Of a stretch of DNA of 64,000 nt, positions 32,421-39,528 are shown in pieces. Positions within the stretch are counted from its first letter, which is position 1. Each line of letters begins with the position of its first letter. Made by a program: the position numbers and the translations under genes. The stretch is from Desulfuromonadales bacterium. Lineage in GTDB: Bacteria; Desulfobacterota; Desulfuromonadia; Desulfuromonadales; Geopsychrobacteraceae. Below the pieces are notes generated by a model. The model searched no databases. It worked only from the letters and a program-made list of their open reading frames with translations, and was not told the origin of the DNA. The stretch is from the NCBI GenBank assembly GCA_019429255.1, contig JAHYIY010000006.1, forward strand, positions 1 through 64,000, given 5' to 3'.

Positions 32421-32621
32421 CTGGTTTATAAATGCAAAATAGCTAACCTCCTGATTTATCGAAGCCAATGCTTAAGTTCACTCCTGTCTTTTTCTGTAAA
32501 AATACACACCCGTTGCCGCTGTCGAATCCGCTTCAATGAACACTGGAGCGTGGCGCAGTGGACATTGATATATATACAGCCGGTGATAGACTTTCCTGAT
32601 AATCACAAACTCAGGAATTAT

Positions 32622-33374
32622 ATGAATCAGGGTCCATTCAGACATGACCGCATGCGCAAACAATCACCGTTATTGGCCATTTCTGCCAGTGTGCTTTTCG
32701 TCGCGCTGCTGCTGGCAGTGATGGTCTATTTCGATGTTCATGAACAGCTGCTGCAGTTGCTACGCTGGGTCGATACCAAAGGGGCGTGGTCGGCGTTGCT
32801 GTTCATCCTGATTATGGCAGCTGTGGTTGTGCTGGTGCTGCCGGGGGTGCTGCTGACCACCGGTGCTGGTTTTGTTTTCGGCGTAGTCGAAGGTTCCATC
32901 TATGTCGTTATTGGGACAACCCTCGGTGCAACCTTTGCGTTTTTGATTGCTCGCTATCTTTTCGGACAGAGAGCACGATCTTTTGTCATATCCCGAGCTA
33001 AATTACGCCTGTTAAGTGACGAGCTCACACCGCAGGGGTGGAAGATCGTGCTACTGACGCGCTTGATCCCTTTTTTTCCGGGCAAGCTTTCCAACTATTT
33101 TTTCGGCTTGACGTCATTTTCGTTGCCCGGATTTGTTGCCGGTTCGCTGCTCGGTTTTGTCCCTTTTTCTATTCATAATGTCTATCTCGGTTCCATTGCT
33201 GTTGATATCAGCGCGCAAGCCGTCGGAAGTCTGGATCGTTCACCTCTGGGATGGGTTGTGTACGCGGCTGGTTTTCTAGCCACCGTCATCGCAGTTATTT
33301 ACTTTAACCACCTCGCTCGTCGTGCATTGAAAAAATATATGAGTCATGGCAGCGGTGAGGAGAAATCATTTTGA
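32622..33374 (+). CDS. TVP38/TMEM64-family (VTT domain) membrane protein
   Basis: A 250-residue protein with five to six membrane helices. It has the VTT/DedA-like signature: LPGVLLTTGAGFVFG, GTTLGATFAFLIARYL, and LLTRLIPFFPGKLSNYFFGLTSF. Family members are linked to lipid scrambling or proton-coupled transport. The ATG at 32622 with an AGGAA site is preferred over the longest frame from 32550; ATG 32652 is an alternative. Its stop overlaps the TTG start of the glycosidase-like gene (TTGA), so the two are coupled. Confidence 0.9.
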   Translation: MNQGPFRHDRMRKQSPLLAISASVLFVALLLAVMVYFDVHEQLLQLLRWVDTKGAWSALLFILIMAAVVVLVLPGVLLTTGAGFVFGVVEGSIYVVIGTTLGATFAFLIARYLFGQRARSFVISRAKLRLLSDELTPQGWKIVLLTRLIPFFPGKLSNYFFGLTSFSLPGFVAGSLLGFVPFSIHNVYLGSIAVDISAQAVGSLDRSPLGWVVYAAGFLATVIAVIYFNHLARRALKKYMSHGSGEEKSF

Positions 33375-35623
33375 GTGTGTTCAGGTGGTTGCCATGGCGT
33401 TTTTTTGTTCGCCGCATTGCCCGGAGCAAGGGGTTTCTCGACCCGTTCGCTCTGCTGGCTCGGCTGCACAGCTTTGCCCAGCCATCGGAAGTTGCTGAAC
33501 CGATCGAACTGTTGCGTGCCGGAGTCGTATTTCATGCCCGCGGCCTGATTAACAGCCGGGTTATTCAGCATAATCTTGACTGGGTCTGGCCTTATTGGAT
33601 CGAGCGGCAGTTTGATCCCCATGATGTGTCATTCATTCCACGGGCTTTTTCCCTGACCCACATCAATTTGACTCACCGCAACTGGACAGCTGTAGGTTAT
33701 CCCGATTGCACGGAATTGCCGATTGTCGACCCCCGGGGCCTGCTTACCCCCTTCCATGATGGCTGGTCAATCGATTCCTGGCTGATCTGCGAAGATGGGC
33801 GATCTCTGCTGCCGTCACGTGCCCCCGAGTGCCGGCAACGACAGGATCTTGTCCCTGATGTTTGCATCACCACGGAAACACAAGGTTCAGGGTTACAGCT
33901 GACCAGCAAAGCCTGGGTACAGCTCGAAGAGGGGTTGCCGGTATGCAAATTGCGGTTGCAGGCCTGCACCGACAGCGATGCCCGGTTGGTATTGGCACTG
34001 CGCCCTTATAACCCCGAGGGAATCAGCTTCATTCACGAAATTAGTCTGTCAGATGAGCGCACCGCCTGGATGATCGATCAGACCCACCGGGTCAAATTCA
34101 GCAGTCCCGTCAAACACCACCAGGTTTCCGATTATCACAAGGGTGACGTTTTCATTCACCTGAGCGATCCGATGGAACAAACTGCGGGTCGCTGCGCCGT
34201 CGGTATGGCGACGGCGGTGGCACTGTTCCCGGTTAAAGCAGGTGCTACAGCTGATGTGACCGTCACTATACCACTCACGCCTGCTGGTCCAGCAGGTGAA
34301 CATCTTGTTCCAGATGCGTGGCACAAGGAGAAGCAAGGGCTGTGTAAACTCACCTGCCCGGAACCGCGCTACCAGTTTCTCTACGACGCTGCAGTCACCT
34401 CGTTGATTCTGCATTCGCCTGATGATGTCTATCCCGGCCCCTTTACCTACAAGCGTTTCTGGTTCCGTGATTCAGCTTTTATTATTCACGCGCTCCTCTG
34501 CGTTGGTCTGACCAGTCGCGCCGAACGTGCACTGGCGCGTTTTCCGAAACGTCAAACGGTGCTGGGATATTTCCGTTCCCAAGACGGAGAGTGGGATTCC
34601 AATGGGCAGGTGCTATGGATTCTCAAGCGCTATTTTGATTTGACCGGACAGCCGTTTGACCCGATCTGGCTAAAATCGGTTAAGAGCGGGGCGCGCTGGA
34701 TTATGCGCAAGCGGCTTGCCGACGATCAAGGCCCCCCACATGCCGGACTGTTGCCGGCCGGTTTCAGTGCTGAACATCTGGGCCTTAATGACTATTATTA
34801 TTGGGATGATTTCTGGGGGATCGCCGGCCTGCGCGCGGCAGCGACCATGGTTCAGGAACTGGACCTCGACCATGGGCGGGAGTTTGCTAAAGACGCCGAC
34901 GCTTTCGCGGCGGCGGTTGAACGCAGCCTGGCTGGTTGTGCCGTGCGCCTGAAGCGTCCGGCCATGCCGGCGTCTCCCTATCGCCGTCTGGATGCCGGCG
35001 CGATCGGTTCACTGGCCTTCGGTTATCCAACCCAGCTCTGTGCCGCAGATGATCCCCGTCTCCTCGACTGCGTCGAGTTTCTGTTCGATCACTGCTTCGT
35101 CAATGGTGCCTTTTATCAGGATATGATTCATTCCGGCCTTAACGCCTACCTGACCCTGCACGTGGCGCAAATAATGTTGCGTGTCGGCGATGCGCGCTAC
35201 CTTGAACTGATGGATGCCGTTGCCGCCCTGGCAACTGCGACCGGACAATGGCCGGAGGCGATCCACCCGCACACTGGGGGCGGCTGTATGGGTGATGGTC
35301 ACCATGTCTGGGCGGCGGCTGAATGGGTCTTGATGGTGCGTAACTGTTTTGTCCGCGAAGAAGGTGAACAGCTGATCCTGGCGGCTGGGGTGCCTGAGCG
35401 CTGGCTTGCACACAGTGCGCCGATCCATTTTGGTCCGGCTCCAACAACCTTTGGCCCGGTATCCCTGAGTATCACGCTGGATTCCGGTCATTCGCCACGA
35501 ATCGAATGGCGGGGTGACTGGCATCACAACGAGCCCCCGATTGAAATCCGACTGCCCGGTTTCGAGACGACATCTGTTGCCGCCGGCAGCGGATCGGTTA
35601 TCCTGAGCAGAAAGGAATCATGA
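33371..35623 (+). CDS. Six-hairpin glycosidase-like protein (glucoamylase/GDE-like fold)
   Basis: A 750-residue cytoplasmic-looking protein with no signal peptide. An N-terminal beta-rich half (1-330) precedes an alpha-alpha-barrel half that shows FTYKRFWFRDSAFIIHALL, YFRSQDGEWDSNGQVLWIL, DYYYWDDFWGIAGLRAA and GQWPEAIHPHTGGGCMGDG. These resemble the GH15/GH63/debranching six-hairpin enzymes, but I cannot assign a GH family. The TTG start overlaps the VTT gene stop with a GAGGAG site upstream. The next gene is a GT4 glycosyltransferase 3 nt away, implying action on the same glycan or glycolipid. Confidence 0.72.
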   Translation: MSVFRWLPWRFFVRRIARSKGFLDPFALLARLHSFAQPSEVAEPIELLRAGVVFHARGLINSRVIQHNLDWVWPYWIERQFDPHDVSFIPRAFSLTHINLTHRNWTAVGYPDCTELPIVDPRGLLTPFHDGWSIDSWLICEDGRSLLPSRAPECRQRQDLVPDVCITTETQGSGLQLTSKAWVQLEEGLPVCKLRLQACTDSDARLVLALRPYNPEGISFIHEISLSDERTAWMIDQTHRVKFSSPVKHHQVSDYHKGDVFIHLSDPMEQTAGRCAVGMATAVALFPVKAGATADVTVTIPLTPAGPAGEHLVPDAWHKEKQGLCKLTCPEPRYQFLYDAAVTSLILHSPDDVYPGPFTYKRFWFRDSAFIIHALLCVGLTSRAERALARFPKRQTVLGYFRSQDGEWDSNGQVLWILKRYFDLTGQPFDPIWLKSVKSGARWIMRKRLADDQGPPHAGLLPAGFSAEHLGLNDYYYWDDFWGIAGLRAAATMVQELDLDHGREFAKDADAFAAAVERSLAGCAVRLKRPAMPASPYRRLDAGAIGSLAFGYPTQLCAADDPRLLDCVEFLFDHCFVNGAFYQDMIHSGLNAYLTLHVAQIMLRVGDARYLELMDAVAALATATGQWPEAIHPHTGGGCMGDGHHVWAAAEWVLMVRNCFVREEGEQLILAAGVPERWLAHSAPIHFGPAPTTFGPVSLSITLDSGHSPRIEWRGDWHHNEPPIEIRLPGFETTSVAAGSGSVILSRKES

Positions 35624-35626
35624 TGC

Positions 35627-36916
35627 ATGAATATACTTATTATCACCAATACCTTCACCCCGCACGTCGGCGGTGTGGCTCGCTCGGTGGAAGCGTTCGT
35701 TGCGGAATACCGCAAGCGTGACCATCGGGTGCTGGTCGTGGCTCCTGACTTTCCTGACATGCCGCAGGACGAAATTGACGTCGTGCGGATCAATGCCATT
35801 CAACACTTTAACGCCAGTGATTTTTCCGTCGCGTTGCCGATTCACCCGCATCTGACTAAAGCTATTGATGATTTTAATCCCGATATCGTTCATTCACAGC
35901 ATCCTTTCCTGCTGGGGCTCACCGCATTGCGCCTGGCACGTCATCGCGGGCTGCCGTTGGTGTTCACTCACCACACCCTGTATGAGCAATATACCCACTA
36001 TGTGCCGGGTAATTCCCCTAGGATGAAACGCTTTGTCATTGAGCTTGCTACCAGCTATGCCAATCTCTGCGATCAGGTTTTTGCTCCCAGCGAGAGCATC
36101 TGTGACCTGTTGGGCAAGCGTGGCGTCACGGCACCCATCACTGTGGTGCCGACCGGGGTGCGTTTGGACAGTTTCGCCAGCGGTGAAGGCGCCGCATTTC
36201 GCAAGCAGTTGAATATTCCGCAGGACGCCTTCGTTGTTGGTCACCTGGGCCGACTGGCGCAGGAAAAGAACCTGGCGTTTCTGGCGCGAGCGGTCGCAGA
36301 TTTTGTCAGTCGTCATCCACCAACACATTTTCTGGTGGTCGGAACCGGCCCCTCCATAGATGCTATTCGAGAGATATTTACCCGATCCAAATTGGCACAA
36401 AGGTTACACTTCGCCGGTATTCTGCAGCAGCAACAGCTAGCAGATGCATTACATGCGATGGATCTGTTTGCCTTCGCTTCAACCAGCGAGACCCAGGGTA
36501 TGGTGTTGACCGAAGCCATGGCGGCCGGTTTGCCGGTGGTCGCCCTTGATGCTCCAGGTGTGCGCGAAGTGGTGAAGGACAAAGACAACGGCAGGTTGTT
36601 GCACGATACCTCAGTGGCAGCTTTCAGTGCCGCCTTGCAGTGGGTGTACGAACGGACTACCCAGCAACGTCGTGCTCTGCAACAGTCAGCACTTGCCACG
36701 GCCTACGATTTTTCCATGCCTATTTCCGCAGATACGGCTCTGACCTGCTATGCAACCCTCAGCGAACAGCTACAGGTTAAAGCTGATGCTGATGCTGATG
36801 TAAGCAATCTGGATGAGATTTTGACCTATATCAAAACCGAGTGGGACATCCTTAAAAGCTTTGCAAGAGCAGGCGATTCTGCCATCGATACCCACCTTTT
36901 TTCAGAAAAAGATTGA
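35627..36916 (+). CDS. GT4-family glycosyltransferase
   Basis: A 429-residue GT-B transferase of family GT4. The N-terminal domain starts MNILIITNTFTPHVGGVARS and contains FTHHTLYEQYTHY, as in diacylglycerol glucosyltransferases and related lipid glycosylators. The C-terminal domain has GHLGRLAQEKNL, a VVGTGPSID loop and the E-x7-E motif in SETQGMVLTEAMAAGLPVVA. A charged helical tail of about 50 residues is extra. The gene is coupled to the six-hairpin protein upstream and to the phosphodiesterase-like gene downstream. A lipid acceptor is inferred from similarity to the DAG transferases. Confidence 0.9.
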   Translation: MNILIITNTFTPHVGGVARSVEAFVAEYRKRDHRVLVVAPDFPDMPQDEIDVVRINAIQHFNASDFSVALPIHPHLTKAIDDFNPDIVHSQHPFLLGLTALRLARHRGLPLVFTHHTLYEQYTHYVPGNSPRMKRFVIELATSYANLCDQVFAPSESICDLLGKRGVTAPITVVPTGVRLDSFASGEGAAFRKQLNIPQDAFVVGHLGRLAQEKNLAFLARAVADFVSRHPPTHFLVVGTGPSIDAIREIFTRSKLAQRLHFAGILQQQQLADALHAMDLFAFASTSETQGMVLTEAMAAGLPVVALDAPGVREVVKDKDNGRLLHDTSVAAFSAALQWVYERTTQQRRALQQSALATAYDFSMPISADTALTCYATLSEQLQVKADADADVSNLDEILTYIKTEWDILKSFARAGDSAIDTHLFSEKD

Positions 36917-36917
36917 T

Positions 36918-38594
36918 ATGACAGGTCGTATGGAAAACATGCTCAGGCACCTCCGTCGTGTTTTCAGCCGCAGTGTCTGGTTGGCGCGGCTTTTACGCCT
37001 TCCGGCTTCAGAAGGATCATCAACCCGTCCCGGGTTAATCATGGTTCAGATTGACGGGCTCTCGCAATGCCAGTTTGAACAGGCTGTTGCGCGCGGGGAA
37101 ATGCCCCTCTTACGCCGTTTGATCCAGCGCGAGGAGTATCAGTCCCACGCGCACTATTCAGGGCTGCCATCGACCACGCCGGCGGTTCAATCAGAACTCT
37201 TTTATGGTGTCAAAGGTGCGGTGCCGGCGTTCTCTTTCAGGGATCATGAATCAGGTCACATTGTTCGCATGTATGAGCCGGAAGCGGCTGCAAAGCTTGA
37301 AGAACATCACACCAAAACCGGTAACAGTCCATTGCTTCAGGAGGGCAGCGCCTATTCCGACATCTTTACCGGTGGTGCCGCAGAATCGCACTTCTGTCCC
37401 TCATCAATGGGTTGGGGTGCAACCCTCCGGGCAGCCAATCCCCTGGTGATGCTGGCGTTTCTGTTTGCCAATCTCTACAGTTTGCTCCGGGCTGCAGTTT
37501 TGCTGCCGCTGGAGCTGGGATTGGCGCTGTTTGATTTCGCCCGTGGACTGGTTCGCGGTCAGGATTTTATCAAAGAATTGACTTTTATCCCGACGCGGAT
37601 CGGCATCTGTATTCTGTTACGTGAATTCTGTGTGATTGGCGCCAAGATCGATATCAGCCGCGGCTTGCCGATCATCCATATCAACTTACTCGGTTATGAC
37701 GAACAAGCTCATCGCCGCGGGCCGAATTCGCTCTTCGCCCACTGGACGCTCAAGGGAATCGACGACGCTGTCGCCCGTTTGTGGCGAGCGGCCAACCACG
37801 CCCCATGGCGTGACTACGAGGTCTGGATTTATTCCGATCACGGTCAGATCAAAGTCCGCCCCTTTGACCAGGTTCAGGGGTATCCACTGGTTGAGGCCGT
37901 CAAGGCAACTTTTGCAAAATTGAATATCGCCCCTGAGAATATCCATGCCGAAAGTACCAGTAGCGTTCAGACCAGGCGGATTCGTCTTCTGGGGGGTAAC
38001 ACCATTCAACGTTTGTTTTCTGTCCTTGATGGAAATGGCAATATTCCGTACGACATTCAACCGATCATGACCGCTTTGGGGCCAGTCGCGCACCTCTACA
38101 TGGAAAAAGAAATTGCGCAGACAGAAAAAGCGAGCATCGCTGCTGAACTGGTACAGACTCACCAGGTTCCCGTCGTCATTAGACAGATCGCGCCTGGCAG
38201 GTTTCGCGCCTGCACCGCAACGGCTGAATTCCAGCTGCCGGAGGATATCATCGCCCTGTTTGGTGCAAATCATCCATTTATAGATGCTCTTGGTGATGAT
38301 CTGCTGCGTCTGTGTGAACATCCGGATGCCGGTGACTTTATATTGCTGGGCTGGTGTGACGGAGTAACTGCCCTGTCTTTTGCGGAAGAGAATGGCTCCC
38401 ATGGCGGTATCTCGCCTGAAGAGACCAATGGGTTTGCACTGTTGCCCAGGGATACCTGGTTGCCTGCGCGTGAATATAGCTACCTGCGCCCAGAGGATCT
38501 GCACAAGGCGGCGTTACATTATCTTGATCGGTCGTATGAAGGGAAAACTTTCAGTCGTCCGGGCGATGAACCCGTACCTGGAAAAATTACTTAA
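36918..38594 (+). CDS. Alkaline-phosphatase-superfamily phosphodiesterase-like protein
   Basis: A 558-residue member of the alkaline phosphatase/nucleotide pyrophosphatase superfamily. Metal and nucleophile positions are visible: VQIDGLS (Asp46), GLPSTTPAVQ (Thr86 or 87), INLLGYDEQAHRRGP, IYSDHGQ and GSHGG. One or two hydrophobic segments lie in the middle (LVMLAFLFANLYSLLRAAVLL), so it is probably membrane-attached. The start ATG is 1 nt after the GT4 stop. Relatives transfer or cut phosphoethanolamine, phosphoglycerol or nucleotides; a lipid or glycan headgroup reaction would suit the neighbours. Confidence 0.8.
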   Translation: MTGRMENMLRHLRRVFSRSVWLARLLRLPASEGSSTRPGLIMVQIDGLSQCQFEQAVARGEMPLLRRLIQREEYQSHAHYSGLPSTTPAVQSELFYGVKGAVPAFSFRDHESGHIVRMYEPEAAAKLEEHHTKTGNSPLLQEGSAYSDIFTGGAAESHFCPSSMGWGATLRAANPLVMLAFLFANLYSLLRAAVLLPLELGLALFDFARGLVRGQDFIKELTFIPTRIGICILLREFCVIGAKIDISRGLPIIHINLLGYDEQAHRRGPNSLFAHWTLKGIDDAVARLWRAANHAPWRDYEVWIYSDHGQIKVRPFDQVQGYPLVEAVKATFAKLNIAPENIHAESTSSVQTRRIRLLGGNTIQRLFSVLDGNGNIPYDIQPIMTALGPVAHLYMEKEIAQTEKASIAAELVQTHQVPVVIRQIAPGRFRACTATAEFQLPEDIIALFGANHPFIDALGDDLLRLCEHPDAGDFILLGWCDGVTALSFAEENGSHGGISPEETNGFALLPRDTWLPAREYSYLRPEDLHKAALHYLDRSYEGKTFSRPGDEPVPGKIT

Positions 38595-38664: not shown

Positions 38665-39528
38665 TTGCCCGCCATGTTGCGACAGCTTTTTATCTTCAGT
38701 GCCCATAACAAGCGTCTACTGCTTATAACAGCAGGCATTTGCCTTTTGTGGAGTGGCACGCTGGTGGGGCTCTGGTTAGCTATTGAATTCCTGCAAATGA
38801 CAGCCATCGGGTGGTCTGAGGTCTTTGTGCTGGTGCAGCTGTATCTGGCGGCGCAGATTATTCTGCCGGCCATCCAGTTGCAACCAGAAAAGCGCAATCG
38901 CGGATTTTATCTGTTCTGGCTGCTGCTTCTGGTTGCGCTGATCTGGTTGGTCAACCGTTTGTCAGTTGCCGAGCCCCGGTTGCTGGTGAGCGCCCTGGCC
39001 TCGGGTTTGCTGCTGTTTACCGGAACCCTGGTTGGTGTTGCACTGGCCCGTTACGTCAAGCGCCTGTGGGAAGTGCTTCCTTTGTGTCTGGTAATGATGC
39101 TCGCCGATTTTTCCAGCTGGGCAATTGGTCCAACGGCTGAGTTTGCCCGGGAGATAGAGGCCTACTACCTGGACCCTGTTGGCTCACCGCCTTTAATCGA
39201 TATGGTGCTGGTCAAATTTTCCTATCCGGGGGCACCAGATCTGGTGCCTGTATTCGGCGTGTCCGACTGGATCATGGTTGTTTTCTTTGCTGCGTTGGCA
39301 CGGCGTTACCGGATGAATGACAACCTGCTCGGCCCACCGCCAGGGTCTTATCCCGATCGATTATGTTGGCGCTATCTGCCGGTATCGGCTCTTGCCCTGT
39401 TTGTGGCGATCATGCTCGCCCACACCAGCGGTTCCTTTATTCCAGCCCTGCCGCTGATTGTCCTGGTTGTGGTTGTTTTTTACCTGCTGCGTACCCTGCC
39501 ACAAAAGCTGTTCAGGACGAAGAACTGA
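38665..39528 (+). CDS. Polytopic membrane protein with presenilin-like GxGD protease motifs
   Basis: A 287-residue membrane protein with seven to nine helices. I recognise no bacterial family. It does carry, in order, LADFSSWAIGP with Asp148, FGVSDWIMVVFF with Asp201 and IPALPLIVLVVVVFYLL with PALP at 260-263. Presenilin and signal peptide peptidase have the YD...P helix, GxGD and PAL motifs in that order. The Asp-Asp spacing (53) and Asp-PAL spacing (59) are near those of archaeal presenilin homologues. Ser replaces the middle Gly (GVSD). The TTG start has a GGGGG site; ATG 38674 is an alternative. It ends the glycan/lipid series, 70 bp after the phosphodiesterase-like gene. Confidence 0.6.
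   Translation: MPAMLRQLFIFSAHNKRLLLITAGICLLWSGTLVGLWLAIEFLQMTAIGWSEVFVLVQLYLAAQIILPAIQLQPEKRNRGFYLFWLLLLVALIWLVNRLSVAEPRLLVSALASGLLLFTGTLVGVALARYVKRLWEVLPLCLVMMLADFSSWAIGPTAEFAREIEAYYLDPVGSPPLIDMVLVKFSYPGAPDLVPVFGVSDWIMVVFFAALARRYRMNDNLLGPPPGSYPDRLCWRYLPVSALALFVAIMLAHTSGSFIPALPLIVLVVVVFYLLRTLPQKLFRTKN

Follow-up and report, generated by a model that had tools for sequence, protein, structure and literature searches.

The gene at 38665–39528 on the forward strand of the window (the whole analysed stretch of DNA, 64,000 nucleotides long, from a bacterium of a sulfur-reducing type) probably encodes a bacterial di-aspartyl protease of the signal peptide peptidase (SPP) type that cuts within the membrane and stands alone, with the presenilin/SPP fold and a relaxed Gx[S/A/T/V/G]D motif. 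A presenilin/SPP-like protease had been put forward as a candidate in a preliminary description made from the DNA alone; two AlphaFold2 (AF2) folds and a fixed set of putative catalytic residues support it, and we infer proteolysis from these. The mechanism and substrates proposed below are conditional on it.

Presenilin and SPP are enzymes that cut proteins within membranes, presenilin being involved in Alzheimer’s disease, and their superfamily is known from eukaryotes and archaea. The protein and its homologues probably form a new, divergent bacterial branch of this superfamily (MEROPS A22), which lies outside the existing Pfam families and departs from the strict YD and GxGD motifs and from the nine-helix layout. 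Archaeal members are treated in a review of the superfamily (PMC9263693), and a review of membrane proteases names the archaeal PSH and no bacterial presenilin (PMC12067869). In the reviews consulted, PSH serves as the model of a prokaryotic presenilin, and bacteria are credited with no enzyme of the presenilin/SPP type. No description of a bacterial presenilin/SPP was found in the open-access literature; an earlier mention is possible. A bacterial family of more than 100 members that is invisible to sequence profiles would give the superfamily a wider distribution.

The gene and its conserved residues

Translation confirms the 287-residue open reading frame described earlier, with D148 in LADFSSWAIGP, D201 in FGVSDWI and PALP at residues 260–263. 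Its features are listed below; D1 and D2 are the first and second putative catalytic aspartates, and the helices are those of the AF2 model.

38665–39528, + strand: presenilin/SPP-like membrane protein gene, 287 aa; TTG start, alternative ATG at 38674
38701–38793, + strand: TM helix 1, residues 13–43 (AF2 secondary structure), outside the presenilin-aligned part
38812–39048, + strand: TM helices 2–4, residues 50–70, 79–99 and 105–128
39064–39123, + strand: helix 5, residues 134–153, with the first proposed catalytic Asp; presenilin TM6 equivalent
39106–39108, + strand: codon of D148 (D1), conserved in 118/118 and paired with PSEN1 D257
39124–39258, + strand: D1–D2 loop, residues 154–198 (AF2, charges, alignment), net negative and predicted periplasmic
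39256–39267, + strand: G198-V-S-D201, GxGD equivalent with the second putative catalytic Asp; G198 and D201 conserved in 117/117
39259–39306, + strand: helix 6, residues 199–214; presenilin TM7 equivalent
39382–39429, + strand: helix 7, residues 240–255; presenilin TM8 equivalent
39442–39453, + strand: P260-A-L-P263, PAL equivalent opening the last helix, identified by conservation and paired with PSEN1 P433
39445–39522, + strand: helix 8, residues 261–286; presenilin TM9 equivalent

Most homologues start near residue 4, and its ATG at 38674 is therefore as likely a start as the TTG at 38665. Within the genus, dN is 0.14–0.31 against a dS of 0.73–1.38 (dN/dS ~0.2), and the reading frame is therefore a constrained coding gene under purifying selection. 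Compared with two relatives from the genus (L032 and L066), the gene is 62–66% identical and the neighbouring glgP and glpK are 90–92% identical; it diverges much faster than they do, yet the putative catalytic residues are fixed.

Dozens of columns are invariant among 26 close relatives, and most of these are lost with growing divergence. In an alignment of 118 sequences, D148, S151 and G155 are fixed (118/118), as are P195, G198, D201 and P260 (117/117), while L262 is kept in 116 of 117 and most other columns vary. Because D148, G198, D201, P260 and L262 are kept against this variable background, the motifs are not due to chance. A separate, diverse alignment (n = 23) has as its invariant columns D1, a Ser, a Gly, a Pro, a Gly, D2 and the Pro of PAL. 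As far as the alignments can tell, fixed D148, D201, first Gly and PxL are the pattern to be expected if these are working parts of the protein. Close homologues lacking the aspartates or PALP had been named beforehand as evidence against the protease reading; both aspartates and PxL are kept in close and distant members alike (n = 118).

The remaining motif positions are relaxed. PALP is replaced by PVLP, PALV or PGLV in relatives, so the core is PxL. The strict YD is replaced at D148, where Ala precedes D1 in most members, and the strict GxGD at D201, where the window protein has GVSD with the first Gly invariant. Position 200 is S in 92, A in 16, T in 7, V in 1 and G in 1 of 117 sequences, and the single member with Gly (L126) has FGVGD, a canonical GxGD. 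The initial view was that Ser for Gly (GVSD) and Ala for Tyr indicate a divergent or new branch; the divergent branch stands, and Ser as a fixed novelty does not, since position 200 drifts. With this drift, nature supplies a mutation series for the second GxGD glycine.

Mutants of human SPP offer a comparison: G264A is mild and G262A strong, the effect is severe in D219A and in L319A, which alters the PAL leucine, and Y218A gives a strong defect; the motif common to SPP and presenilin is given loosely as a hydrophobic residue followed by D (PMC13252537). Variation in the family parallels these effects, in that the position equivalent to G264 drifts and the equivalents of G262, the Asp and L319 are fixed; the Y218A defect, with Ala before D1 in most members, counts against the protease reading.

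The spacing of 53 and 59 residues between D148, D201 and PALP was as first described, and the match to archaeal homologues claimed along with it is only rough. D162 and D220 of PSH are 58 residues apart, and a haloarchaeal PSH homologue has a long, acidic loop insertion between its two aspartates. The latter is encoded on a haloarchaeal megaplasmid (L088:1441–2529; Natrinema thermotolerans plasmid CP031304.1) and is annotated as a hypothetical protein.

It is unlikely that the presenilin fold serves here a purpose other than proteolysis, e.g., in a channel, a scaffold or a lipid enzyme using two buried carboxylates. The absence of the strict YD/GxGD signatures, the lack of visible partner genes in the neighbourhood and the lack of a known substrate or activity would agree with such a use. 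However, pseudoproteases usually lose an Asp, and it is exactly the catalytic set (two Asp, the first Gly, and the Pro and Leu of PAL) that is fixed while the rest drifts, as protease function predicts.

Predicted fold and sequence register

Structure prediction, recommended earlier as a check, gave the presenilin/SPP fold in two independent AF2 models. The model of the window protein (26 family members) has a pLDDT of 82.5 and a pTM of 0.84, and that of a relative, L082 (41 members), 91.4 and 0.89, respectively; presenilin structures were included in the training of AF2. L082 is 31% identical to the window protein in pairwise alignment, comparable members being 26–31% identical.

Z scores were obtained by structural realignment of candidates supplied by Foldseek. 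With the window model, the top 23 rows are all PSEN1, PSEN2, SPPL2a or PSH (Z 13.3 to 7.8), and the next row, which is unrelated, has 4.6; PSEN1 scores 13.3 over 205 residues, SPPL2a 11.1 and PSH 8.1. With the L082 model, the top 19 rows are all presenilin-clan (Z 14.2 to 8.9) and the best unrelated row has 5.5; PSEN1 scores 14.2 (rmsd 3.1, 199 residues), SPPL2a 12.5 and PSH 10.7. The presenilin/SPP core fold is thus found in both AF2 models, and its matches are set apart from all later rows by over 3 Z. Foldseek by itself was weak for the window model and gave no E ≤ 0.001 for either model; for L082, two presenilin chains ranked first with a probability of 1.00 and E 0.016–0.046.

The window protein has eight predicted helices rather than nine, with one fewer before D1 than presenilin, and its structural alignments with presenilins start only at model residue 46–53. 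L082, a Desulfobacterota member, has nine helices, of which the extra one is C-terminal. TM2–4 of SPP are likewise unalignable with presenilin (PMC13252537). According to the AF2 model and the alignment, the two invariant aspartates lie on neighbouring helices (residues 134–153 and 199–214), and PALP (260–263) opens the last core helix, as PAL does in the superfamily. The L082 model has paired strands (189–192 and 201–205) just ahead of D2, and the window model has short ones at 182–184 and 196–198. Residue 287 of L082 pairs with PSEN1 452, which places P268 of L082 on PSEN1 P433 if the stretch is ungapped.

Neither the window protein nor divergent members matched anything when scanned against Pfam and NCBIfam, phmmer and hmmsearch against PDB sequences returned chance matches only, and PF01080, PF06550 and PF04258 gave no score above the curated cut-off (hmmscan, genome search). 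PF01080 and PF06550 had no match in the window’s own genome, a negative that for PF01080 is weak by itself because this profile matched no control genome either. The significant profile match that had been suggested as a check was not found, and its absence is uninformative at such distances. Failure of profiles is expected, since single-sequence searches do not connect the known branches well either: human SPP reaches presenilins only at E ~0.1–0.2, and PSH does not reach PSEN1 at E ≤ 10.

Unconstrained hhalign E-values against single known sequences were 0.04–0.15, which is not significant, and individual scores were barely above those of decoy membrane proteins; it is therefore the register, and not the score, that carries the sequence evidence. 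D257 of PSEN1 was aligned with D148 and its PAL with P260-A-L, and helix 4 of the window protein was paired with the helix preceding PSEN1 D257 (unconstrained profile alignment). D201 was aligned with the GxGD Asp of SPPL2a and with D265 of SPP (HM13), whose sequence was checked only in part; the PSEN1 and PSH queries were exact against the PDB. D220 of PSH fell on D201 with one family alignment, a register that was lost with a wider alignment, and the haloarchaeal PSH homologue was never in register with the family. A chance best local alignment would land on such a position only rarely.

These results bear on two further explanations. An unrelated multi-helix protein that carries two intramembrane aspartates, and resembles presenilin by convergence or accident, would be missed by the profiles of known families, as the window protein is, and moderate Z scores can arise by chance for helical bundles. 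We nevertheless consider this very improbable: the top rows of two independent searches belong without exception to the presenilin clan and score far above the rows that follow, and the registers of PAL, D1 and D2 agree between sequence and structure. Membership of the type IV prepilin peptidase/FlaK enzymes (A24), which form the other group of aspartyl proteases with GxGD in the membrane, is also very improbable. One of their membrane helices likewise bears a motif of the GxGD type, but they are not known to have a PAL helix, and the structural match of the window protein spans the A22 core through that helix; nor is there a PF01478 match. A24 folds do not occur in either structural match list, which does not prove that they are absent.

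Predicted orientation, proposed mechanism and possible substrates

Across 95 members, K+R per 10 aa is 0.9–3.2 in the N-terminus, loops 2–3, 4–5 and 6–7 and the C-terminus, and 0.06–0.5 in loops 1–2, 3–4, D1–D2 and 7–8; the D1–D2 loop has a net charge of −1.3. Under the positive-inside rule, this alternation predicts a cytosolic N-terminus and a periplasmic D1–D2 loop. This computed count (n = 95) puts the loop on the non-cytosolic side, as in SPP/SPPL, and favours an SPP-type orientation, opposite to that of presenilin, for the family. In presenilin the D1–D2 loop is cytosolic; SPP/SPPLs sit the other way round in the membrane, and their substrates are of the N-in kind (type II) (PMC7768045, PMC13252537). 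PSH has many positive charges in its D1–D2 loop, which suggests that it takes the presenilin orientation.

A presenilin-like protease that sits in the presenilin orientation, with a cytosolic D1–D2 loop, and cuts N-out (type I) helices, perhaps freeing a regulator, is decidedly unlikely for the family. PSEN1 scores slightly higher than SPPL2a in the structural comparison, and the GP following D1 resembles PSEN1; against this, the charge pattern over the 95 members puts the loop outside.

With the SPP-type orientation, an N-in substrate helix would enter laterally. In the window model, the D1–D2 loop contains a conserved S/GPT region, an amphipathic helix (156–169) and strands 182–184 and 196–198. 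This helix and the two strands, together with P260–L262, may unwind the helical substrate and keep it in place as an additional strand, as happens in SPP and presenilin. Inside the membrane, D148 on helix 5 and D201 on helix 6 would hold a water between them and activate it, and this water would cut the substrate.

From the SPP orientation, N-in helices would be the expected substrates, either signal peptides that have served their purpose or membrane proteins with a single N-in helix. Spent signal peptides are the most abundant N-in single helices in bacteria, and clearance of signal peptides and small membrane proteins is therefore our leading guess, the signal-peptide role taken alone being tentative. 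General replacement of SppA by the family was rejected, as SppA is present in 128 of the 136 genomes of the order. Since SppA is near-universal there, the family enzyme would be an addition and not a replacement, with some redundancy in any role on signal peptides. The family gene does occur in two near-complete genomes that lack SppA (G038 and G058), which are too few to carry meaning. The family raises the question of whether some bacteria use an SPP-type aspartyl protease plus SppA for signal peptide clearance.

No conserved gene neighbourhood that could serve as a substrate clue was found beyond the genus, and the gene context therefore indicates no dedicated substrate. Just upstream in the window lies a tight same-strand run (32550–38594, +) encoding a VTT/DedA-type membrane protein, a 750-aa protein, a GT4 glycosyltransferase and an alkaline-phosphatase-type phosphodiesterase. 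The best NCBIfam resemblance of the glycosyltransferase is to glucosyldiacylglycerol synthase, and the run is perhaps an envelope glycolipid operon; it is not beside the protease gene in most relatives. The 750-aa protein (33371–35623, +) has a toroid-glycosidase look (WFRDSAFIIHALL..., GYFRSQDGEWDSNGQVLWILKRYF) but matches nothing in Pfam or NCBIfam at E ≤ 1. The gene directly downstream of the family member in two Desulfobacterales-type genomes (L082:8670–9266 and L085:8643–9209) encodes proteins that are similar, as judged by eye, with one N-terminal membrane helix (YKD..GxxHF..DYQVIYxP), and these are possible substrates.

Distribution and comparison with known systems

In the window’s own order, Desulfuromonadales, family members occur in 72 of 136 genomes, normally in single copy, with Pelovirga terrestris, Malonomonas rubra and Desulfuromusa kysingii among the named carriers. 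A Desulfobacterales-type order has it in 19 of 242 genomes, and the divergent set of the family comes from Desulfobacterales and relatives. Thin samples of the wider phylum gave almost none (2/297 and 2/394 genomes), also with a wider profile; outside the phylum, coverage was one pattern scan of genome contigs. Relatives were looked for on viral contigs and plasmids and none were found. PF06550 matched in two bacteria and two archaea among the control genomes, above the cut-off in two of the four, and from these bacterial matches A22 members may exist elsewhere in bacteria.

A quick tree grouped the sequences mostly by order and contained two very long branches, L126 and L127. These very divergent members (L126:1209–2066, with FGVGD; L127:1474–2304, with VGITD and PVLP) are possible links towards the classical A22 families. 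One genome (G899) has two divergent family copies, L120 and L128, and one member (L107; G821:C505) is split across two reading frames, either as a decayed gene or through an assembly error.

A fuller placement, as an undescribed bacterial presenilin/SPP branch with SPP orientation and relaxed GxxD that acts as a true bacterial signal peptide peptidase beside SppA and is sister to eukaryotic SPP rather than to archaeal PSH, is conceivable and on balance doubtful. The family in any case offers small single-component enzymes for structural and mechanistic studies.

Among the known systems, SPP/SPPL (A22B; human HM13 and SPPL2a) share with the family the fold (SPPL2a Z 11–12.5), a D2 motif in register, PxL in the last core helix, a D1–D2 loop that is predicted to be outside, and an apparently single-component make-up. 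They differ in that the family has S/A/T/V for the second Gly of GxGD, Ala for the Tyr before D1 and eight helices instead of nine, without an N-terminal extension or PA domain and with no PF04258 match. Presenilin (A22A; PSEN1/PSEN2 of gamma-secretase) is the best structural match (Z 13.3–14.2), has small strands near the active site as the family does, and pairs its D257 with D148 and its P433 with P260. Unlike presenilin, the family has no large, cut D1–D2 loop and no PF01080 match; the opposite orientation is predicted, and nicastrin, APH-1 and PEN-2 would not be expected as partners. The archaeal PSH/MCMJR1 (PF06550) has the same fold (Z 8.1 and 10.7) and a similar distance between the aspartates (53 vs 58), and is likewise prokaryotic and stand-alone, whereas its sequence likeness to the family is undetectable and PSH has the canonical YD, GMGD and a positive D1–D2 loop.
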